Below are positions 5,154 to 23,688 of a stretch of DNA of 25,677 nucleotides, in pieces; the first letter of the stretch is position 1; every line of letters begins with the position of its first letter. The notes beneath the pieces were generated by a model. It was not told where the DNA came from, searched no databases, and was given only the letters and a program-made list of their open reading frames with translations. A program made the translations under genes and the position numbers. The stretch is from a virus: IMG/VR virus record IMGVR_UViG_3300017957_000065, positions 1 through 25,677 of that record; one strand, given 5' to 3'.

Positions 5154-5639
5154 TCATTTCTTTTTAGCGAGTTTACCTTCAAACTCATCGATAAAGTCGT
5201 TTATATAATCTGGTGGTTCTGACATTGTAATAAGTCCTTCACTACCATCCACGACTTGCATATCCGACATCATTTTCTGTGATGATTTAAATCGAATGTA
5301 AAGTTGTTTCTTTTCTTTTTGGATCCGTCTTAGAAATGCATACCAAATGATCTGTGTAAAGTAAGCAAATGGATTCTTAGATTTTTCTGGATCAAAATTG
5401 TGAATATATTGTAGACAGTTTTCAATACCATCTGAAATCATATCTTCTTTATAGGAGTAACCAGAAAAGTTTGGTTTTGTTGCAAGACGGTTAGCGATCA
5501 TAAAGATACACTCACCGATATAGTCTGGGACTCTGGGGATCTCTTCCCCCGAATCTTCTGCCTCTTTACACGCCTCTTTATATTGAATAAGTGATTCCAG
5601 AAGGTCTTTGTTGTTGACGTAATTTCTCTTCTTAGACAA
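5154..5639 (-). CDS. 55: gp55 sigma factor for late transcription
   Basis: A 161-residue T4 gp55-like sigma factor that directs host RNA polymerase to late promoters (TATAAATA). Diagnostic is the region-2-like stretch YKEDMISDGIENCLQYIHNFDPEKSKNPFAYFTQIIWYAFLRRIQKEKKQ (about residues 64-114), which binds the beta' coiled coil and recognises the -10 box. The initiation codon is TTG at 5639-5637, because a strong AGGAGG lies 6-8 nt upstream and no in-frame ATG is available. A consensus minus-strand promoter is centred 50 nt upstream. Finding gp55 together with three exact TATAAATA boxes in this window makes a consistent late-transcription circuit. Confidence 0.93.
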   Translation of the reverse strand: MSKKRNYVNNKDLLESLIQYKEACKEAEDSGEEIPRVPDYIGECIFMIANRLATKPNFSGYSYKEDMISDGIENCLQYIHNFDPEKSKNPFAYFTQIIWYAFLRRIQKEKKQLYIRFKSSQKMMSDMQVVDGSEGLITMSEPPDYINDFIDEFEGKLAKKK

Positions 5640-8892: not shown

Positions 8893-9096
8893 ATGAGAGA
8901 AATTCTTTTAGAAGCCCTGAGAAGTCATGCACAGGGTCATGTCGACAAACACAAAGCAAATGTCGAAGTATACTTAAATTCAACAACTGGTATTGGGGAA
9001 CACCCAGACATTATTGAAGCAATGGAAATGGAAATCATGGAAATTGCAAAATATGATGATGTCCTAGAAATGTTGGAAAAGTATTTTAACAAATGA
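8893..9096 (+). CDS. Small conserved phage protein (REILLEALRSHAQGHVDKH family)
   Basis: A 67-residue soluble, helical protein: MREILLEALRSHAQGHVDKHKANVEVY..., then GIGEHPDIIEAMEMEIMEIAKYDDVLEMLEKYF. From memory, closely similar proteins are widespread in T4-like cyanophages and pelagiphages; none has a known function. I place the start at the second ATG (8893) because a GGAG is 6 nt upstream, inside the first candidate ATG at 8881. Its stop overlaps the next start (ATGA), so it is coupled to the FkbM methyltransferase. The leader overlaps the divergent late promoter of the tail gene; a weak TTGATT/TATTAC pair at 8846-8873 is the only plus-strand promoter candidate. Confidence 0.75.
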   Translation: MREILLEALRSHAQGHVDKHKANVEVYLNSTTGIGEHPDIIEAMEMEIMEIAKYDDVLEMLEKYFNK

Positions 9097-9806
9097 ACCA
9101 CAAAGCTTTAGATCCTCACAAACTTAGTACTGAGGGTATTGATCTTTCACAGGCAGCACATCTTTATTCTGAGTTTTTCAAAACTTGTGAATATAACTGG
9201 TGGTATGAAGTACTACCAGATGATATTGTCGTGGACATTGGTGCCTGTGTCGGTTTCTTTTCTGCAAATGCATTAGACAAAGGTGCGGATCGTGTATACA
9301 TGATCGAACCCAATCGTGATCTATTGAAAACTGCAATACGGAATGTTTCCGATTACATCATTGATGATAACACTCGTGTTGTTCCAATTCATGGTGCAAT
9401 TTCATACAGTCCGTATGATACATTACATGTATTTGGTGAAGGTGATGTAGATTATCCTACATTTACCTTCACTCAATTTTTAAATGATTATAACATTGCT
9501 CAGATCGACTTTTTGAAAATCGATTGTGAAGGTGCAGAATATAATATCCTACAACCAGAAATGATAGATTGGTTTGAAAATAATGTTCGACACATGGCAA
9601 TTGAATGTCACTTACGTGCAGCGGATGATTCACCAAGACAGTTTATAAGATTTCGAGATACTTTTCTTCGACACTTTATGGATAAAAATAAAGTTCGTGT
9701 TCAGAACAATTATGTCCGTAATGCGATAAATGAAGATTGGGCAATGATGCAAAGAGACTGGACAAAAGTTCCACCAGAGTTCATGATCTATATCACGAAT
9801 TGGTGA
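9093..9806 (+). CDS. FkbM-family SAM-dependent methyltransferase, copy 1
   Basis: A 237-residue class I methyltransferase of the FkbM type. Motif I is IVVDIGACVGFFSANAL (about 46-62). The acidic ribose-binding position lies in VYMIEPNRD, and FLKIDCEGAEYNIL near residue 145 is the FkbM signature. FkbM enzymes usually O-methylate sugars or small molecules, and phage copies are often thought to modify glycans, but the substrate here is unknown. The start overlaps the preceding stop by 4 nt. The 3' end meets copy 2 tail to tail with a 14-nt overlap, and both proteins end in a matching FM(I/L)YITN tail encoded by one inverted repeat. Overall similarity to copy 2 is obvious along the whole length. 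Confidence 0.85.
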   Translation: MNHKALDPHKLSTEGIDLSQAAHLYSEFFKTCEYNWWYEVLPDDIVVDIGACVGFFSANALDKGADRVYMIEPNRDLLKTAIRNVSDYIIDDNTRVVPIHGAISYSPYDTLHVFGEGDVDYPTFTFTQFLNDYNIAQIDFLKIDCEGAEYNILQPEMIDWFENNVRHMAIECHLRAADDSPRQFIRFRDTFLRHFMDKNKVRVQNNYVRNAINEDWAMMQRDWTKVPPEFMIYITNW

Positions 9807-9816
9807 TGTACAACAT
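9783..9816. repeat. Imperfect inverted repeat shared by the two FkbM gene ends
   Basis: A 34-bp imperfect palindrome centred between 9799 and 9800, with core ATCACgAATTgGTGAT. On the plus strand it encodes MIYITNW-stop, and on the minus strand MLYITNS-stop, so the two convergent genes use the same DNA for the same C-terminal motif. The ATCAC/GTGAT stem is too weak, and lacks a U-run, for a terminator call. Confidence 0.7.
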
Positions 9817-10500
9817 AAAAGAAGATCCCCATCCGATTGGCCAATCTCCACGCAGCTTTTCGTCGTCGTGCGATAACACTCTATCTTTGTGTGTTAAAAA
9901 TCTCACTTGGTCTAAGTTAAAGTGGTTAACAACATGATCTCTAAAGTGTATCCATTCGTATGGTGCTTCTCTAAACGCATCCAAATGAAACTCAACTGCG
10001 ATGTGTTTAACGTGATGTTTTAAGAATAGAATATTTTCTTTCTTGAAGATATCAAATTCTGCTCCCTCAATATCAATTTTTAAAAAATCAATATTGTGGA
10101 TCTGGTGTTCGTGCATCAGTTCCATAAATTCTTTACGTGGTGCATCTACATTTTCACCATAGTAATTCAACGCATATCTATCTGCTTTACCTATTGCAGC
10201 ATGGATAGGTACAACACACGACTTTGAATTGTCGATCCAATGTTCAGAAACATTGTAACATAAAGTTTTAAGATGTTCTCTATTAGCTTCGACTGCATAA
10301 ACTTTCTTTGCCCCACGATCCAAAGCGTGACATGTGAAGAAACCAACACATGCGCCAAGGTCAACGACGATGTCGCCTTCTTGAACCTCATACCACCAGT
10401 CGTAATCTTTTCTTTGGAATAATTCGTGGAACATGGTGTTTACATCTAAAATGTTTAGACCATCTGTTCGCAAATTGTAATTTAGATACTTGTCTTTCAC
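9793..10500 (-). CDS. FkbM-family SAM-dependent methyltransferase, copy 2
   Basis: A 235-residue paralogue of the gene at 9093-9806. It has DWWYEVQEGDIVVDLGACVGFFTCHALDRGAKKVYAVEAN (motif I) and FLKIDIEGAEFDIF, and ends FMLYITNS. The initiation codon is GTG at 10500, with a GGAG 9 nt upstream. An in-place ATG upstream is followed at once by a stop, so it is not the start. It lies 17 nt downstream of a strong intrinsic terminator and has no clear promoter of its own, so expression may depend on terminator read-through or antitermination. It overlaps copy 1 tail to tail. Substrate unknown; glycan or small-molecule O-methylation is the family expectation. Confidence 0.83.
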   Translation of the reverse strand: MKDKYLNYNLRTDGLNILDVNTMFHELFQRKDYDWWYEVQEGDIVVDLGACVGFFTCHALDRGAKKVYAVEANREHLKTLCYNVSEHWIDNSKSCVVPIHAAIGKADRYALNYYGENVDAPRKEFMELMHEHQIHNIDFLKIDIEGAEFDIFKKENILFLKHHVKHIAVEFHLDAFREAPYEWIHFRDHVVNHFNLDQVRFLTHKDRVLSHDDEKLRGDWPIGWGSSFMLYITNS

Positions 10501-17009: not shown

Positions 17010-17288
17010 ATGATGAAACAATGGCGAATGGATATTAAACCAAAATGCGAGGGCGGATGCGAACTCTTTGTAACTTCAAGAGGGACTGTCCGTCCTTGCT
17101 TTTGGATTAGTGAAGCCAGTGAAGAAAAAAAGATTTTTGATGATAGTGATAATTGGAACTTAGATAAGACTTCAATGGATGAAATTGTAAACGTGCATCT
17201 TAAAAAATTTGTAGATGATATTAAGTTAAACCCTTTCAATGGTCTGAAGGTTTGTTTTTATGAATGCACGGAAAAATATAAAGATTGA
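17010..17288 (+). CDS. Stand-alone SPASM-like Fe-S domain protein
   Basis: A 92-residue protein. MDIKPKCEGGCELFVTSRGTVRPCFW, then NLDKTSMDEIVNVHLKKFVDDI and finally VCFYECTE, together resemble the SPASM/twitch auxiliary domain found at the C-terminus of radical SAM maturases (IxPxC...yvxxxGxvxPCC..., an xxSxxEI helix, terminal CxxxC). Here it is a separate gene preceding a short radical SAM gene, with a 29-nt overlap. Cysteines at about residues 13, 17, 30, 81 and 85 could ligate an auxiliary cluster. The start is uncertain: there are two adjacent ATGs at 17010/17013 with a poor ribosome site, and a third ATG at residue 7. Confidence 0.6.
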   Translation: MMKQWRMDIKPKCEGGCELFVTSRGTVRPCFWISEASEEKKIFDDSDNWNLDKTSMDEIVNVHLKKFVDDIKLNPFNGLKVCFYECTEKYKD

Positions 17289-17883
17289 ACTCACATCAAA
17301 GTGTTTTCAAGGATGTTTTAAATGTCCTAGAACTTTGTTGATGGGACAATATGACGTGTTGGATTTGCCAATAAAACATATCCGAACCATTATAAATAAC
17401 AAACCAGATAGAATAGTATTGATGGGAAATTTAGGAGATCCTATCTATCATTCGCAGTTTCCAGAAATTGTAGAAATGATTAATAGGAGTTCAATACCAT
17501 TTTCAATCTATACGGTTGGATCTGGATATAATGAAGAATGGTGGCGAAACATATATACCGTATCTACAAACGAAGATAATAGATTTGTTTTCGATGTAGA
17601 TGGACTTCAAGACACTGCAGGAACATACAGAAAGGGATTGTCCTTTGACCAATCCTTTACTGCTATGTGTGTTGGTGCATCAATGGGAAAATCTATTAGA
17701 TGGAGTTTTCCAGTTTTGAAACACAACCAACACCAAGTAGAAGAAGCTTGTCATCTTGCAAAAGAATTTGGAATACGTTTAGAAATAAACTATTCTGAAA
17801 GATGGGATACTAATGACCCGTGGAAACCAACAATCTCTAAAAAAGAGGTTGACAATGCATTGTTAAAATGTTATACTATTTAA
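17260..17883 (+). CDS. Short radical SAM protein
   Basis: A 207-residue protein with the radical SAM cluster motif CFQGCFKC (spacing CxxxCxxC) in IKIELTSKCFQGCFKCPR near residue 15. A GNLGDP-like block (VLMGNLGDPIYHSQF) corresponds to the GGEP SAM-binding motif, and later strands (FVFDVDGL, IRWSFPVL, IRLEINYSERW) complete a partial TIM barrel. Radical SAM enzymes usually have 250 or more residues, so this is a compact form. It lacks its own SPASM domain, and the gene directly upstream supplies something like one. Substrate unknown. The promoter for proX lies in its last 35 nt. Confidence 0.85.
   Translation: MNARKNIKIELTSKCFQGCFKCPRTLLMGQYDVLDLPIKHIRTIINNKPDRIVLMGNLGDPIYHSQFPEIVEMINRSSIPFSIYTVGSGYNEEWWRNIYTVSTNEDNRFVFDVDGLQDTAGTYRKGLSFDQSFTAMCVGASMGKSIRWSFPVLKHNQHQVEEACHLAKEFGIRLEINYSERWDTNDPWKPTISKKEVDNALLKCYTI
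17849..17877 (+). promoter_or_regulatory. Sigma70-type promoter for proX-proW-AKR
   Basis: A perfect TTGACA (17849-17854), 17 nt, TATACT (17872-17877), inside the 3' end of the radical SAM gene and 39 nt before the proX ATG. An AAAGGA ribosome site follows. The transporter operon can thus be transcribed independently. Confidence 0.8.
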
Positions 17884-17915: not shown

Positions 17916-18911
17916 ATGAAAAAAACTTTGGTTACTCTCGCTGCAGCGGCAGCAACCTTTGGTTTCGTCACAACCGCTAGCGCAAGCGATTGTGGTGATG
18001 TCACAATGGCAGGACTAGGATGGGGCTCTGCATCCATCTTGGGTGAAATTGATAAACTAGTCCTTGAAGAAGGATTTGATTGCAAAGTCACCATGATCCC
18101 AGGCGGGACAGTTCCTTCGTTCACTTCTATGGTTGAACAGTCTCAACCAGATATTATGGGTGAATTGTGGCCAAACGCTGCAGGCATCGATCTATATAAT
18201 GCCGCACTGGCAGATGGTCGTATGACTGAATCCGCAGCACAATCACCAATTGGTGGTGTTGCAGAAGGATGGTATATCCATCCAAACATTCTGGAAACGA
18301 ACCCAGAACTGACTACACTAGAAGCAGTTTTGGCACGTCCAGATCTTTTCCCACATCCTGATGATGCGAGCAAGGGTGGTTTTGTAACCTGCCCGCCAGG
18401 CTCTGGTTGTCAGATTTCAAATGCGAATTTGTTCAACGCATTTGACATGGAAGCAAAAGGTTGGAAGATGATCGAACCTGGCTCATATGCTGCAGAAGAT
18501 GCAACTATCAGTCGTGCCCATGACCGTGGCGAACCATGGTTCGGATACTACTCTGCACCAACCGCATTTGTAGGTAAGTATGACCTACGTGTGCTTGATT
18601 GGGGCGTAGATTTCGCAGGACAAGAAAACTGGAATTGTATTACAAAACCAGATTGTCCAAATCCACAACCATCCTCTTGGACATCTTCATTTGTGCGTAC
18701 AGTCGTAACAGATGAATTTGCTGCCTCAGGTAGTGCAGAAGTGCAAGACTATCTTGCCGCACGTGTGATCCCTGGCCCAGTGATGAACTCACTATTGGGT
18801 TACATGGATGACAACCAAGCAGCACCAGATGAAGTAGCAGAATACTTTGTAGAAAACTACGACATGTGGAAAGATTGGGTTTCAGAAGACGTAGCAGCGA
18901 AACTACAATAA
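17916..18911 (+). CDS. proX: ProX-like glycine betaine/proline ABC transporter substrate-binding protein
   Basis: A 331-residue periplasmic binding protein of the OpuAC/ProX family. A Sec signal peptide (MKKTLVTLAAAAATFGFVTTASA) precedes CGDVTMAGLGWGSASILGEIDKLVLEEGFDCKVTMIPGG, followed by QPDIMGELWPN, EGWYIHP and EPWFGYYSAPTAFVGKYDL. The Trp/Tyr residues in the last three blocks are of the kind that form the aromatic cage for quaternary amines. Paired cysteines (e.g. in CPPGSGC) may form disulphides. Family function is binding glycine betaine, proline betaine or similar osmolytes and handing them to ProW. It has its own promoter and is followed after 4 nt by proW. In a phage it is a rare host-derived metabolic gene, presumably raising uptake of a compatible solute or of carbon/nitrogen during infection. 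Confidence 0.92.
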   Translation: MKKTLVTLAAAAATFGFVTTASASDCGDVTMAGLGWGSASILGEIDKLVLEEGFDCKVTMIPGGTVPSFTSMVEQSQPDIMGELWPNAAGIDLYNAALADGRMTESAAQSPIGGVAEGWYIHPNILETNPELTTLEAVLARPDLFPHPDDASKGGFVTCPPGSGCQISNANLFNAFDMEAKGWKMIEPGSYAAEDATISRAHDRGEPWFGYYSAPTAFVGKYDLRVLDWGVDFAGQENWNCITKPDCPNPQPSSWTSSFVRTVVTDEFAASGSAEVQDYLAARVIPGPVMNSLLGYMDDNQAAPDEVAEYFVENYDMWKDWVSEDVAAKLQ

Positions 18912-18915
18912 ACCC

Positions 18916-19767
18916 ATGATCGATCTCTTTGAGTTCCCAGAACTACATCGGAGCACGATACGGACTATTAAAAAGTCCATTGACAACTCCTTCAGAGAAT
19001 TTTCTCGTAGTTATGGGGACTCAATAGAGGTCATATTCTACCCACTCAAAACTTTCATGAATTGGGTAGAGTTTACATTAGTAAACGCACCATGGCCCTT
19101 GACAATGATTCTTCTTGTCGGGGCCATTTTTTATCTTACTAAAGACAAAATACTCTGTGCAGGTTCTATCCTGTACATGATTTTTATTGGAGTATTTGGT
19201 CTGTGGGAAGATACGATGTACACTTTAAGTCTTGTGTTAACTTCTGGACTTCTGAGTGTGATGATCGGTATCCCATTTGGTATTTGGATGTCACGAAGTG
19301 ATCGTGTACAAAGGTTTACCAACCCTGTGTTAGATGTAATGCAGACAATCCCTATCTTTGTCTACTTAATCCCTGTTGTTATGTTGTTTGGTCTAGGTAA
19401 GATCCCAGGCGTGATTGCAATGACAATCTATGCAGTGCCACCTATTATTCGTTTAACAAACTTAGGACTTCGTCAAGTTGGTATTGGTATGATTGAAGCT
19501 GCCCTGAGTATGGGGATGAGACCACGTCAAATTCTTTGGACAATTGAACTACCTCTCGCAAAGAAGTCAATCCTTGCAGGTGCAAACCAGACAACTATGA
19601 TGGCGATTTCAATGGTTGTGATCGCAAGTATGATTGGTGTTCAAGGTTTGGGTGTGCCTGTTTTACAGGCAGTACAAAATCAATATATTGGTAGTGGCAT
19701 CATTAGTGGAACTGCAATCGTAGGGCTTGCAATCATATTAGATAGGGTTATTCAGAATGCAAAATAA
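18916..19767 (+). CDS. proW: ProW-like glycine betaine/proline ABC transporter permease
   Basis: A 283-residue inner-membrane permease with about six hydrophobic segments and the EAA loop EAALSMGMRPRQILWTIELPLAKKSILAG, which contacts the ATPase. The region SGLLSVMIGIPFGIWMSRSD and the end GTAIVGLAIILDRV are typical of ProW/OpuAB. It is shorter than E. coli ProW (354 aa) because the N-terminal extension is reduced; the conserved core appears whole. No ProV ATPase gene is seen in this window, so the permease would need the host ATPase or one encoded elsewhere. Weak ribosome site, 4 nt from proX, so probably coupled. It overlaps the reductase gene by 11 nt. Confidence 0.93.
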   Translation: MIDLFEFPELHRSTIRTIKKSIDNSFREFSRSYGDSIEVIFYPLKTFMNWVEFTLVNAPWPLTMILLVGAIFYLTKDKILCAGSILYMIFIGVFGLWEDTMYTLSLVLTSGLLSVMIGIPFGIWMSRSDRVQRFTNPVLDVMQTIPIFVYLIPVVMLFGLGKIPGVIAMTIYAVPPIIRLTNLGLRQVGIGMIEAALSMGMRPRQILWTIELPLAKKSILAGANQTTMMAISMVVIASMIGVQGLGVPVLQAVQNQYIGSGIISGTAIVGLAIILDRVIQNAK

Positions 19768-20710
19768 TATTTGTATTGGAACAATGTTGTGGGGATCCAG
19801 AACCACTGCACAAGAAGCACATAAGATTATCAATGCCGCTTTAGATTACGGTGTAGATTTTTTCGATACTGCACAGATATATCCAACATTTCCTTATAAC
19901 GAATGGACGCACGGTGTCAGTGAAAGTATATTGGGAGATTGGATGTGGTCAAACAAAAAGAAACTTCGTATCAGTACAAAATTAAAAAGTCCAATTGAAC
20001 CCGAAGAGATTGATGAACAAGTAGATGCAAGTCTCAAAAGACTTGGAGTAGAATGTATTGATTATTGTCACTTCCACTGGCCAAAAAGAAATCATTATCA
20101 CTTTAGAAATGTCTGGGATTATTCCCCAGAAGGAAATACTGAAGAGATTTTAGATTACTTTGATATGTGTAGTGAGAAACTAAAAGACTTACAACAACAA
20201 GGTAAAATTAAACATATCTGTATGAGTAATGAAACCGCATGGGGTGTTACTCAGTGGGCGCAACGTCTACCATTAAAATGTATTCAAAACGAATATAGTC
20301 TTCTACACAGAATATTTGAATTGGATGTTGCAGAAGCATGTTATCACAACGGTGTAAAACTTCTTGCGTGGACACCACTTGCGGGTGGACTGTTGACTGG
20401 TAAGTATAATAGATTTCTAGAAGGATCGCCTGTAGGTAGTCGAAGAACCTATGGTGGATTAGGACCACGAGATAACAAAAATGTTTGGGAACCTATTGAT
20501 AAGTATCAGAAGATTGCAGAAAATGCAGGAATGTCTTTGACACAAATGTCTATGTCGTGGGTGTTACGACAACCTCTATTAGAAGCCATGATATTGGGAG
20601 TAACTGACAGTCACCAATTAAAATTAAACTTAGACTGGATACCAGAATTAGAAGATGATGTGATCAGACAGATTCAGTCTGTATTCAAAGATCATCCTCT
20701 TCCTTTTTAA
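19757..20710 (+). CDS. Aldo/keto reductase
   Basis: A 317-residue NADPH-dependent aldo/keto reductase with a TIM barrel. The catalytic tetrad is readable: Asp37 and Tyr42 in DFFDTAQIYP, Lys75 in ISTKL, and His107 in CHFHWPK. The cofactor-binding end shows LAWTPLAGGLLTGKY and LGVTDSHQLKLNL. It is the third gene of the proX-proW operon, overlapping proW by 11 nt, so it may act on an imported or osmotic-stress-linked carbonyl compound, but the substrate cannot be read. It ends with a 26-nt tail-to-tail overlap with the minus-strand membrane protein gene. Confidence 0.92.
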   Translation: MQNNICIGTMLWGSRTTAQEAHKIINAALDYGVDFFDTAQIYPTFPYNEWTHGVSESILGDWMWSNKKKLRISTKLKSPIEPEEIDEQVDASLKRLGVECIDYCHFHWPKRNHYHFRNVWDYSPEGNTEEILDYFDMCSEKLKDLQQQGKIKHICMSNETAWGVTQWAQRLPLKCIQNEYSLLHRIFELDVAEACYHNGVKLLAWTPLAGGLLTGKYNRFLEGSPVGSRRTYGGLGPRDNKNVWEPIDKYQKIAENAGMSLTQMSMSWVLRQPLLEAMILGVTDSHQLKLNLDWIPELEDDVIRQIQSVFKDHPLPF

Positions 20711-20906
20711 AAGTTTTTTCCGTTCCGTCTGTAATCATCTTTGCTAGTTTGTATGGTGTGAATGCAAAGAGAAAGGGAACAAATGCGTGTATTGTTCCAG
20801 TTACAAACACGAGCAATGCAATCAGATTAAACTTCATCGCAACATACAAGTGTTTGAAGTAGTTACTCTTAATCTTTCTTAAATGTTTAAAGTCTACGTC
20901 TAACAT
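20685..20906 (-). CDS. Small membrane protein, DUF6356-like
   Basis: A 73-residue protein with basic N-terminal residues (HLRKIKSNYFKHLYVAMKFN), one or two hydrophobic segments (LIALLVFVTGTIHAFVPFLFAF) and a charged C-terminus. The pattern of a YxxH-containing amphipathic helix followed by a membrane segment with a central xHAxxPFLF is what I recall of DUF6356 small membrane proteins. A second protein with the same H-x-x-x-P-x-L-F logic is at 22894-23190. It is the last gene of the minus-strand cluster, overlapping the GNAT-like gene by 7 nt. Its function is not known. Confidence 0.65.
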   Translation of the reverse strand: MLDVDFKHLRKIKSNYFKHLYVAMKFNLIALLVFVTGTIHAFVPFLFAFTPYKLAKMITDGTEKTFKKEEDDL

Positions 20907-21490
20907 TTTTTTAACTCATCTATAATGTAGTAAGGTTCTGGTTGAAGCTTTGATATTGTATCGATGTATACGTTAACATCATACTCCCAAAGAGACTGTA
21001 CTGAATTAAAGATTTTTCGATCTCCCAAATAATTACACAGATTTGTGTACTTATTGATTTGTATTTCCATTCTGTGAGACATATCCATATGACCATCTCT
21101 ATCAGAATTTGTTGTCAAAATGAATCTATTAACGCCTATCTTTTGACAGAATCTAATTTGATATTGAAACAAAATTCTGTTTGGGATTGCATTGTATCCA
21201 TACCTTGATATCCCCTTGAAAGGATCTGTGCCAGGCAGGACAACAGATCTGTAACCTATACGGTAAGCGTCTTCGATATCTGGAAATGGATGACAACCAG
21301 ATAGAGATATGATTTCGTCATCTCTTACGAATGCCCAGAACGCACCCATGTTTTCTGTGACCCAGTCCCATCTCATCTCTTTCTTCGAAGAGTTATTCTT
21401 GTAACCCAACTCTGCACATTTGTGCATAAATCCGTCTAGGTCATACCTATCAAAATCTTGCGTTACCAAGTACTGATGTGTGGTTGTCAT
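20900..21490 (-). CDS. GNAT-like acyltransferase-type protein
   Basis: A 196-residue protein. AFWAFVRDDEIISLSGCHPFP resembles strands 2-3 of a GNAT fold, IGYRSVVLPGTDPFKGISRYGYNAIPNRILFQYQIRFCQKIGVNRFILTTN resembles the acceptor/CoA-binding core, and the later NKYTNLCNYLGDRKIFNSVQSLWEYDV matches the terminal strands. The classical Q/RxxGxG/A pyrophosphate loop is not clear, so the assignment is tentative. The ATG at 21490 lies 41 nt inside the upstream gene. With a minimal AMP-forming ligase two genes upstream, transfer of an activated acyl group is a natural guess. Confidence 0.5.
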   Translation of the reverse strand: MTTTHQYLVTQDFDRYDLDGFMHKCAELGYKNNSSKKEMRWDWVTENMGAFWAFVRDDEIISLSGCHPFPDIEDAYRIGYRSVVLPGTDPFKGISRYGYNAIPNRILFQYQIRFCQKIGVNRFILTTNSDRDGHMDMSHRMEIQINKYTNLCNYLGDRKIFNSVQSLWEYDVNVYIDTISKLQPEPYYIIDELKKC

Positions 21491-22253
21491 CTAATTCACC
21501 AAGAAAAGGTTTCAGTTGATTAGGATGGAACTCATCCCAAGTCGTCGTAAAGTCTGCCCAGTCTCTTTGTTCATATCTCATCCAGTTTTCTTCATCAACA
21601 AATTGATATTCATGTTGTTTATATTCTTCGTATAGATCGTCAGTCCATTCTAATACACCATGCGTTTCACACAACCAAATGTCTTTGAATGTGGCTTCAG
21701 ATCCTTTGATGTCTATAATCCAGTCCATTGTTCTTTGAAGCTGATTTCTATAATCTGGTTTCATATCACTGAAGTGATGACTGATCCTATAGTTTGCAGA
21801 AGTCTGTAAGTGCCAGTTCGCAGAAACCTTGGAGTCATAATCGTATAGGTTTATGATCGTGCTATTAGGAAACCACTCTCTAATTTGTTTCGGTTCGTCG
21901 TGAACTACATATACCAACTTCTCTTTTGGTAGATCTAATTTATTCCAAATTTCTATCCATCTATCTTTCCACTCATCATCATTCCAAAATCTAGATACAC
22001 GTTCTCCAAAAAGCGGTGTAACATTTCCATCTGGCAAATCTCTATCAAAGTGGTTTGGTGCAAGTAGTCTTTCTGTACAGGAAAAATCTTTTGGGAATGA
22101 CCAAGGAAACTCACCGTTCTTTTCTGACTTGTACCAATACACTCCACTATAACAAGTAGATAGACGTGCCATTCTCCAACCCCGCCCTCCAAAGTTGGCA
22201 GATATAACTAATATTCTATCGTCGTGAGATATAGTAGAGGGCATTGTTTTCAT
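21450..22253 (-). CDS. Unknown protein, distantly sulfotransferase-like
   Basis: A 267-residue protein. Near the start, RILVISANFGGRGWRMARLST is a strand followed by a Gly-rich loop and helix at the position of a sulfotransferase PAPS-binding loop. Later, KLVYVVHDEPKQIREWFPNSTIINLYDYD resembles the xxxxFPxxKxIxLxRD strand of that family. The rest (WLCETHGVLEWTDDLYEEYKQHEYQF) is unfamiliar. I prefer the ATG at 22253, though 22244 is equally possible; the longer frame to 22328 would overlap the ligase gene by 113 nt. It overlaps the ligase end by 38 nt and the GNAT-like start by 41 nt, unusually tight packing. The function call is weak. Confidence 0.4.
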   Translation of the reverse strand: MKTMPSTISHDDRILVISANFGGRGWRMARLSTCYSGVYWYKSEKNGEFPWSFPKDFSCTERLLAPNHFDRDLPDGNVTPLFGERVSRFWNDDEWKDRWIEIWNKLDLPKEKLVYVVHDEPKQIREWFPNSTIINLYDYDSKVSANWHLQTSANYRISHHFSDMKPDYRNQLQRTMDWIIDIKGSEATFKDIWLCETHGVLEWTDDLYEEYKQHEYQFVDEENWMRYEQRDWADFTTTWDEFHPNQLKPFLGELDDNHTSVLGNARF

Positions 22254-22890
22254 ACTTGACGTTGTCGCCAGTATAGTACCAGTCTCTGTAGATTGACATT
22301 TCGGATCTAACAACAAGTTCTCCGTCATCGATTTTCCACTCTATTTCTATGTTGTCACCCAGTAGTGCGCCAGGTTCAAACATACGTTTTACGTGTTCGG
22401 TGTCATATGGTTGGAATGTTGTGTTGACACATAATGGTCCACACTCAGTCATACCCCAATTACAGAATACTGTTGCACCTCTCTCCACAAGTGCGATAAT
22501 GTTATCTACTGTGTGTGGTTCAGTTCCAACATGTATAAAAGTACCAGAAAAGTCATAGTTGTTAAACTGTTTTACTTTTCTGATACCAGTAATTGCAGTA
22601 TCCGTCAACATAGTATGACTATAAGGACGAAGTTCGTCTAGGTATGTGTAGGGATTGAATTTTGTCTGAGTAACCTTACACCCGACATATTCTCCAGCCA
22701 AGGTCAATGCAAGACCTCCGATGTGGTCGAGTGAAAGGAAGTTCAGTATACTAGAATTTTTAGTGAGGTCGTGAGTTCTTCTATAAACCTCAGATACCAA
22801 ATTCAATTTTTCTGCAGAGTGCCATATTCTTTTTGGTTTACCAGTTGTACCACTCGAATACGTTATCCGCCCATCATCAACTTTATTCAT
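22216..22890 (-). CDS. Minimal AMP-forming ligase (ANL superfamily) core
   Basis: A 224-residue protein containing the central ANL motifs: A3 TYSSGTTGKPK (10-20), A5 NWGMTECGP (144-152) and A7 WYYTGDNVKY (about 205-213), ending ISRR exactly where the hinge motif A8 (GRxxD) would begin. ANL enzymes (acyl-CoA synthetases, NRPS adenylation domains) have about 500 residues; both the first about 150 residues and the C-terminal lid with the catalytic Lys of motif A10 are missing. Motif spacing is regular, and neighbours overlap its ends cleanly, so this is not a random break. It may adenylate a small acid, with a partner completing the reaction. Confidence 0.8.
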   Translation of the reverse strand: MNKVDDGRITYSSGTTGKPKRIWHSAEKLNLVSEVYRRTHDLTKNSSILNFLSLDHIGGLALTLAGEYVGCKVTQTKFNPYTYLDELRPYSHTMLTDTAITGIRKVKQFNNYDFSGTFIHVGTEPHTVDNIIALVERGATVFCNWGMTECGPLCVNTTFQPYDTEHVKRMFEPGALLGDNIEIEWKIDDGELVVRSEMSIYRDWYYTGDNVKYENNALYYISRR

Positions 22891-22893
22891 TTT

Positions 22894-23190
22894 TTACTTT
22901 TTTGCTTTAGTGAACTTTACTCTTTTGAACAGTGGAAGGTCTGGTAGAATTCTAGAAATCATGTGAAGTCTATTGACTTGCGCTTCCAGTAGTTTGAAGT
23001 CAAACAACCAAGGCAGTAGTCCATGTAGGAACCAACCGATTGCCATTAGTAGAGAGAACCCAGCTTCTTTGAATGCAAGTTTAGCGTGCCACCAATATCC
23101 ACCTTTTTCATTTTTCAATGCACGAGATTTGACTACCTCTGCTTCTGCAAGATGTTGTGAATTCCATGCAAGGATATCTTTAAAACTCAT
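22894..23190 (-). CDS. Small membrane protein, DUF6356-like
   Basis: A 98-residue protein: MSFKDILAWNSQHLAEAEVVKSRALKNEKGGYWWHAKLAFKEAGFSLLMAIGWFLHGLLPWLFDF, then FKLLEAQVNRLHMISRILPD. An amphipathic N-terminal helix, a WWH motif and a membrane segment with HGLLPWLF give the DUF6356-type outline that I also see at 20685-20906. The start has GGAGACGAAAT upstream. It is the first gene downstream of the exact late promoter at 23239-23246 and lies 3 nt before the ligase gene, so it is late-expressed with it. Confidence 0.7.
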   Translation of the reverse strand: MSFKDILAWNSQHLAEAEVVKSRALKNEKGGYWWHAKLAFKEAGFSLLMAIGWFLHGLLPWLFDFKLLEAQVNRLHMISRILPDLPLFKRVKFTKAKK

Positions 23191-23213: not shown

Positions 23214-23408
23214 TTACTTAACTTTTTGCGTTTGATAGTATTTATACATCTTAATATACCATTCAAATGATTTTGGATAGTTATGAGGGTTAGGAATTTT
23301 TATTCCTCTGCTTGTGAAATAGTGCATAAACATCAGAACTTCACGGTCTTTTTGGTTTTCCTCGTATTCTTGTCTTTGTCTATACTGCAAAACTTTCTCC
23401 ACATCCAC
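23214..23408 (-). CDS. Small protein, unknown function
   Basis: A 64-residue protein with a charged helical N-terminus (QYRQRQEYEENQKDREVLMFMHYF) and RGIKIPNPHNYPKSFEWYIKMYKYYQ. The block GIKIPNPxxYPKSFExYxxMY seems familiar from small marine phage proteins, without a function. The start is uncertain: the GTG at 23408 overlaps the IscA-like gene by 29 nt, and a shorter form starting at MFMHYF is possible. The late promoter for downstream genes lies inside its 3' end. Confidence 0.55.
   Translation of the reverse strand: MDVEKVLQYRQRQEYEENQKDREVLMFMHYFTSRGIKIPNPHNYPKSFEWYIKMYKYYQTQKVK
23239..23246 (-). promoter_or_regulatory. T4-type late promoter (TATAAATA)
   Basis: An exact TATAAATA on the minus strand (23246-23239), 49 nt before the ATG of the DUF6356-like gene. 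It lies within the end of the preceding coding region and would give late expression of the 20685-23190 cluster. Confidence 0.65.
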
Positions 23409-23688
23409 AGGATGCAGTTGCGTTAGGATTTATCACCTTTAAATAACTACCACCCAATTCTTGTACATAGTCTACCGTACATCCAAATAAAAACATTTCT
23501 GACATTATATCTACTACTAGAATATCTCCAATTAGATTTCCGCCTGTGGTTTCATTTGTGTACCCCCAATCATATTGAAACCCTGAACACCCACCACCTT
23601 TTACTTGAAGAGATATGTAAAGTGATCCCTTTGCAATAGCCATATTCATTAAATAATCTTTTGCTCTGTCTGTTATTGATAGGTTCAT
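23380..23688 (-). CDS. A-type iron-sulfur carrier (IscA/ErpA/HesB-like)
   Basis: A 102-residue protein with the three conserved cysteines of A-type carriers: GGGCSGFQYDW (Cys34) and SCGCGESFAV (Cys94, Cys96). The length matches IscA (107). A-type carriers hold and deliver Fe-S clusters or iron to target enzymes. The gene overlaps the upstream 2OG oxygenase by 4 nt, and the same phage encodes a radical SAM protein, so supply of iron or clusters to phage or host enzymes is a reasonable inference. IscA-like genes are known in marine T4-like phages. Confidence 0.92.
   Translation of the reverse strand: MNLSITDRAKDYLMNMAIAKGSLYISLQVKGGGCSGFQYDWGYTNETTGGNLIGDILVVDIMSEMFLFGCTVDYVQELGGSYLKVINPNATASCGCGESFAV

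Follow-up and report, generated by a model that had tools for sequence, protein, structure and literature searches.

The window analysed here, the 25,677-base IMG/VR viral record IMGVR_UViG_3300017957_000065, is T4-like by gene content and carries on its minus strand five tightly packed open reading frames (ORFs; 20685-23190). They encode a small DUF6356-like membrane protein (DUF6356A), a minimal protein of the ANL (AMP-binding) superfamily, a protein that had been called sulfotransferase-like, a GNAT-fold acyltransferase and a second membrane protein (DUF6356B; Table 1). The cluster proved to be real and to extend beyond the window: marine T4-like phages share it as an auxiliary biosynthetic cassette built around an unusual minimal ANL protein. 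We propose, at a probability of roughly 0.4, that it performs adenylation of an acid followed by N-acylation near the host membrane late in infection. The cassette had no match among 50,697 INPHARED phage records, nor was such a cassette described in the literature searched, in line with the initial annotation of this DNA, which knew of no described phage pathway of this composition.

Recurrence of the cassette among viral loci

A first scan with the ANL protein yielded one near-identical copy and one 65% homologue, an alignment-based ANL scan reached the loci L008 and L009, and scans with the GNAT protein and with DUF6356A reached about 50 loci from much more divergent phages. The DUF6356A scan, made over 2.9 million viral contigs, left 26 non-redundant loci once near-copies had been removed, and independent GNAT and ANL scans recovered the same clusters. 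Clustering of the ORFs of 51 loci assigned DUF6356A to all 51, a GNAT protein to 47, a class-IV aminotransferase to 45, a minimal ANL protein to 44 and the sulfotransferase-like protein to 17. GNAT and minimal ANL were both present in every non-redundant locus with adequate flanks (16/16), down to about 30% protein identity, and the cases of missing cassette genes in the remaining loci fall at contig ends. A joint reading of the genes had initially been made dependent on their travelling together in related genomes, and GNAT and ANL do so; the membrane protein, likewise claimed as part of the unit, co-occurs with both across divergent phages in the form of DUF6356A. Chance neighbourhood was rejected on the grounds of this retention. 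Mixed-cargo hypervariable islands are known in T4-like marine phages (PMC7029224), and the genes might on that account be unrelated cargo sharing such an island. The joint occurrence of GNAT and ANL with DUF6356A in overlapping frames already contradicts this, and DUF6356 and ANL genes are neighbours on bacterial chromosomes too, so that we regard it as extremely improbable.

The gene order of the main branch is a 2-oxoglutarate oxygenase (closest to aspartyl/asparaginyl hydroxylases), GNAT, DUF6356A, the class-IV aminotransferase (profile closest to (R)-selective amine and branched-chain transaminases, E 7e-48), a set of optional enzymes and the minimal ANL. The optional enzymes are two further putative oxygenases, a methyltransferase, a B12-radical-SAM protein and a GMP-reductase-like protein (closest to GMP reductase); the gene for the last mostly lies directly before that of the minimal ANL (L025:14958-15995 and 23 sister loci). 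Because the frames of GNAT (by 8-29 nt) and of the aminotransferase (by 8-38 nt) overlap that of DUF6356A, translation of these three genes is probably coupled.

The window represents a divergent branch without an aminotransferase gene nearby. Such a gene was present in 14 of the 16 adequate loci, the two without it being the window and L009, and it was not found in the five fragmentary records of this branch. DUF6356A of the window is 81-86% identical to its counterparts in sister loci and 39-46% to those of the main branch. In L008 and L009 the order is DUF6356A, minimal ANL, GNAT, a GDSL-like protein (so labelled by eye and unmatched in Pfam), a full-length ANL, the sulfotransferase-like protein, a second GNAT and DUF6356B. 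Bracketing of the cluster by two DUF6356 genes, as initially described, is therefore seen in the window and around the expanded clusters of L008 and L009, and is special to this branch. The full-length ANL ligase inside the L009 cluster (L009:10046-11482, 478 aa) has a weak match to the C-terminal domain PF13193; other ANL genes encode proteins of 387 aa in L034-type loci and of 361 aa in L043. In a sister phage, a gene for a Rieske-type ring-hydroxylating oxygenase (L003:4033-5100) lies just ahead of the cluster on its upstream side.

All five genes described for the window are present on the minus strand. They had been said to overlap, which does not hold for the first pair, separated by a 3-nt gap; overlaps of 29, 41 and 7 nt follow (with the third gene taken from 22244), and the end of the last gene shares 26 nt with a convergent gene for an aldo-keto reductase. 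Relatives of DUF6356A, the minimal ANL, the sulfotransferase-like protein and the GNAT protein were absent from the cultured phages searched, where the full-length ANL and GDSL-like genes of L009 gave distant partial matches only. No GNAT relatives were found in the cellular genomes searched either.

The proteins of the cassette

The window ANL matches the AMP-binding family PF00501 above the cut-off of 29.9 bits, over profile positions 167-337 of 384, and the ANL profile matches the PDB with E 1e-9, which bears out the initial reading of an ANL core of 224 aa. Its motifs comprise the P-loop SSGTTGxPK (A3), the A4 histidine, NWGM(S/T)ExGP (A5) and the TGD aspartate (A7). These four were kept in all 21 non-redundant minimal ANLs, down to about 30% identity. 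All 21 lack both the C-terminal lid domain and the N-terminal portion that would match the initial ~165 profile positions, and they terminate at most 12 residues from the A8 hinge Arg. The lid domain PF13193 had no match in the minimal ANLs of the window and L009, and no conserved neighbour gene able to supply a lid was found in the loci. In ANL enzymes the lid normally completes catalysis and presents coenzyme A (CoA) or a carrier, and its A10 lysine is normally needed for adenylation. Truncation of a normal ligase by phages was rejected, as the end points are identical in all 21 divergent members and on bacterial chromosomes. With the members of the ANL superfamily (for instance 4-coumarate-CoA ligase, the o-succinylbenzoate-CoA ligase MenE, acyl-CoA synthetases and the adenylation domains of nonribosomal peptide synthetases) the minimal ANL shares the profile match from A3 to A8; unlike them, it is about half-size (223-258 aa), without the N-terminal positions, lid and A10 lysine, and is genetically tied to DUF6356.

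These absences, together with the occurrence of DUF6356-ANL without GNAT in bacteria, would also suit a minimal ANL that is not an enzyme at all, i.e. an AMP- or acyl-adenylate-binding regulator or scaffold for DUF6356, with GNAT and the aminotransferase acting separately. What is retained throughout the family, however, is the set of motifs for binding ribose, Mg and the phosphates of ATP. A pseudoenzyme would not usually keep its catalytic motifs so strongly conserved, and we consider a non-catalytic role unlikely.

We also found the combination of DUF6356 and minimal ANL outside phages. On Methylophilaceae chromosomes (L069, L070, L083 and L084) a DUF6356 gene directly precedes, in an overlapping frame, the gene of a minimal ANL of 246-248 aa. 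The two proteins are 62% (to DUF6356B) and 33% (to the ANL) identical to those of the window, and the pair is surrounded by ordinary bacterial genes. It shares with the phage cassette the adjacent DUF6356 and minimal ANL genes, and differs from it in that no GNAT, aminotransferase or sulfotransferase-like gene adjoins. At three other genome matches (L067, L068 and L071) further genes of the cassette are present, and these matches have the appearance of phage DNA within metagenome-assembled genomes (MAGs). Few bacteria encode a minimal ANL. With the centre genomes counted, its exact core pattern occurred in 3 of 100 genomes of Methylophilaceae and in 1 of 385 of Alphaproteobacteria. In a midpoint-rooted tree the chromosomal ANLs group as a single clade among the phage sequences, and a very long branch leads to the window.

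By hydropathy, DUF6356 is a small membrane protein. Two DUF6356-like membrane proteins had been noted in the window; protein B exceeds the gathering threshold of the family (PF19883, 24.4 bits) and protein A falls below it, so that only the term DUF6356-like applies to A. The two align over an H..P core with 26-29% identity. In Alphaproteobacteria, DUF6356 genes adjoin genes for Lrp/AsnC regulators at five loci (L087, L088, L089, L091 and L073). Lrp/AsnC proteins are an amino-acid-sensing regulator family, and these neighbours hint at a link of DUF6356 with amino acids.

Pfam gave no match for the 196-aa protein by itself, but its family profile matches the PDB entry 3t9y (E 1.5e-5), and an AlphaFold2 (AF2) model (pLDDT 87, pTM 0.84) displays GNAT topology; a Foldseek comparison of this model with the PDB placed acetyltransferases on top (best E 2.6e-6, prob 1.0, TM about 0.5), the sugar N-acyltransferase FdhC being among the matches. 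Profile and model agree in confirming the predicted GNAT fold, as first suggested from the sequence. At the pyrophosphate loop of motif A, (Q/R)xxGx(G/A), many main-branch GNATs show (K/R)GxGK(G/A), which the window protein and its sisters lack.

The sulfotransferase-like reading of the third protein was not established. No convincing Pfam, PHROG or PDB profile match was found for this protein, and none of the Pfam sulfotransferase families matched in 10 members of its family. Its AF2 model is poor (pLDDT 53), and the best fold matches of that poor model are weak ones to P-loop kinases and sulfotransferases (E 0.02-0.04). An hhalign comparison with P-loop sulfotransferase-like proteins of sister loci was not significant (E 0.11 over 29 columns). 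The ORF would encode 292 aa if begun at 22328; the L003 homologue favours a start near 22244.

Proposed function of the cassette

The chemistry, membrane role and purpose that we infer for the cassette would be as follows. The minimal ANL would convert a small carboxylic acid, whether an amino, a keto or a hydroxy acid, to the activated AMP ester. As the lid is missing and no carrier recurs, hand-over of the activated acyl group to a partner, probably not to free CoA, would be the simplest mechanism. GNAT is the likely transferase and would place the acyl group on an amine, the class-IV aminotransferase may supply that amine or amino acid in most family members, and DUF6356 would be the membrane partner of the ANL that sites the reaction at the inner membrane. 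An N-acyl derivative of an amine, an amino acid, a lipid head group or an amino sugar could then result and, at a late stage of infection, change the virion or the envelope of the host. A more specific version, in which the lid-less, half-size ANL passes acyl-adenylates via DUF6356 to a membrane acyltransferase without CoA or carrier, seems to us doubtful.

Cooperation of an adenylate-forming enzyme with a GNAT in the formation of amides or esters has been described for SbzB/SbzC and SbzL/SbzI of SB-203208 biosynthesis and for the N-acyl amino acid synthase FeeM (PMC6331615), and this is where the likeness to the cassette lies. The Sbz and FeeM systems use acyl carrier proteins, none of which recurs in the cassette loci, and the cassette differs further in its half-size adenylate-forming protein and in the membrane protein that belongs to the unit.

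Several observations weigh against acid adenylation followed by N-acylation. The A10 lysine is absent from the minimal ANL along with the lid, the window GNAT is without the canonical CoA-loop motif, and no carrier-protein gene recurs in the 51 loci although known ANL-GNAT pairs use one. The window branch shows no aminotransferase, as far as its fragments extend. The bacterial DUF6356-ANL unit has no adjoining GNAT, so that the GNAT step may be a separate one, and a MAG of the Rhodospirillaceae (TMED23) holds a lone minimal ANL of 269 aa without any DUF6356.

The acceptor could be an amino sugar, located either in the host O-chain or in a glycan of the virion, that is N-acylated for superinfection exclusion or fibre function. 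The loci often adjoin putative sugar genes, assigned by eye (UDP-glucose dehydrogenase, an epimerase and a DegT-type aminotransferase), and lie beside a putative tail-fibre gene, and the match of the GNAT model to FdhC would fit as well. The host recognition cluster of pelagimyophages resembles this setting, as it too is a hypervariable island in marine T4-like phages and includes tail fibres; it is rich in lipopolysaccharide and radical SAM genes, and one pelagimyophage ecotype has a GMP reductase (PMC7029224). The main text of that study names no aminotransferase, acetyltransferase, AMP-binding or DUF gene and does not describe the cassette. The sugar genes lie outside the conserved core, however, and none adjoins the cluster in the window; moreover, N-acylation of a sugar alone would need neither a DUF6356 membrane protein nor an (R)-amine-type aminotransferase. 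A dedicated glycan function is in our opinion rather improbable.

That the cassette remodels the inner membrane of the host by making a membrane aminolipid or an N-acyl amino acid appears less probable still. N-acyl amino acids are indeed products of GNATs, which are similar to the N-acyltransferases that act in aminolipid synthesis (PMC11631085), and both the hydropathy of DUF6356 and the Lrp/AsnC neighbours of its bacterial relatives would be compatible with such a product. Aminolipid synthases, however, take acyl-ACP as donor, the use of an adenylate in the pathway is not established (PMC11631085), and no second acyltransferase recurs in the loci.

Probable late expression and neighbouring genes

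PHROGs recognise in the window an SbcC-type gp46 nuclease subunit, a helicase, a gp55-type late sigma factor and a tail tube protein; the helicase, of the UvsW type, is closest to those of Synechococcus myophages (about 43% identity). Both elements of T4-type late transcription are found, i.e. the octamer TATAAATA before the gene and an encoded gp55, which is in agreement with the late promoter that had been noted ahead of the cluster. GGAG precedes the ATG of the first cluster gene. Exact TATAAATA octamers are in excess in the window (4 observed against 1.4 expected), and two further copies are located 32-33 nt upstream of the tail-tube gene and of a tail-lysozyme-like gene. Judged from these signals, late expression of the cluster, as initially proposed, is well supported in the window phage, since the octamer is exact, present in excess and found before two tail genes. 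Across the family the octamer is not conserved, most relatives not retaining it before the cassette.

Table 1. Genes and promoter of the cassette in the window, with the late sigma factor
Feature	Positions	Strand	Basis
DUF6356-like small membrane protein A, 98 aa, marker gene of the cassette family	22894..23190	-	Pfam DUF6356 19.2 bits, below cut-off
Minimal ANL (AMP-binding) protein, 224 aa	22216..22890	-	Pfam AMP-binding 50.7 bits, motifs A3 to A8 hinge
'Sulfotransferase-like' protein of unknown family, 264 aa from likely start	21450..22244	-	G-x-x-G-x-x-x-x-R loop near N-terminus
GNAT-fold acyltransferase, 196 aa	20900..21490	-	AF2 model, Foldseek, PDB profile
DUF6356 membrane protein B, 73 aa	20685..20906	-	Pfam DUF6356 40.1 bits
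gp55-type late sigma factor, expected reader of the TATAAATA promoter	5154..5639	-	phrog_234, E 4.1e-62
T4-type late promoter octamer TATAAATA	23239..23246	-	Exact match, 48 nt before first-gene ATG

Directly upstream of the cluster (23380-23688, minus strand) lies a gene for an A-type iron-sulfur carrier protein (Fe-S_biosyn, phrog_17776), a close homologue of which is encoded near a DUF6356 gene on a Rhodobacteraceae MAG contig (L078:2867-3151). On the plus strand (17916-20710), genes for the substrate-binding protein and permease of a glycine-betaine/choline ABC transporter (OpuAC, ProW-like) are followed by the aldo-keto reductase gene; no ATPase gene was seen near them, and they are unusual cargo for a T4-like phage. 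Two ORFs of 92 and 207 aa (17010-17883, plus strand) resemble a split radical-SAM protein with a cysteine-rich partner, and L017 and its sister loci have a similar pair of 207 and 107 aa in reversed order. Two related FkbM-type methyltransferase genes (9093-10500; Pfam run on the first only) are convergent and overlap by a few bases.

The recurrent and previously undescribed metabolic cassette of marine phages is the first functional context seen here for DUF6356, a family scarcely named in the literature searched. The compact adenylate-forming class at its centre should test how much of the ANL fold catalysis really needs. If direct transfer of acyl-adenylates at the membrane holds true, marine phages and streamlined ocean bacteria would share a novel way of transferring acyl groups. 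Should the product of the cassette change the virion or the envelope of the host, this would represent a novel type of chemistry performed by phages in the ocean.

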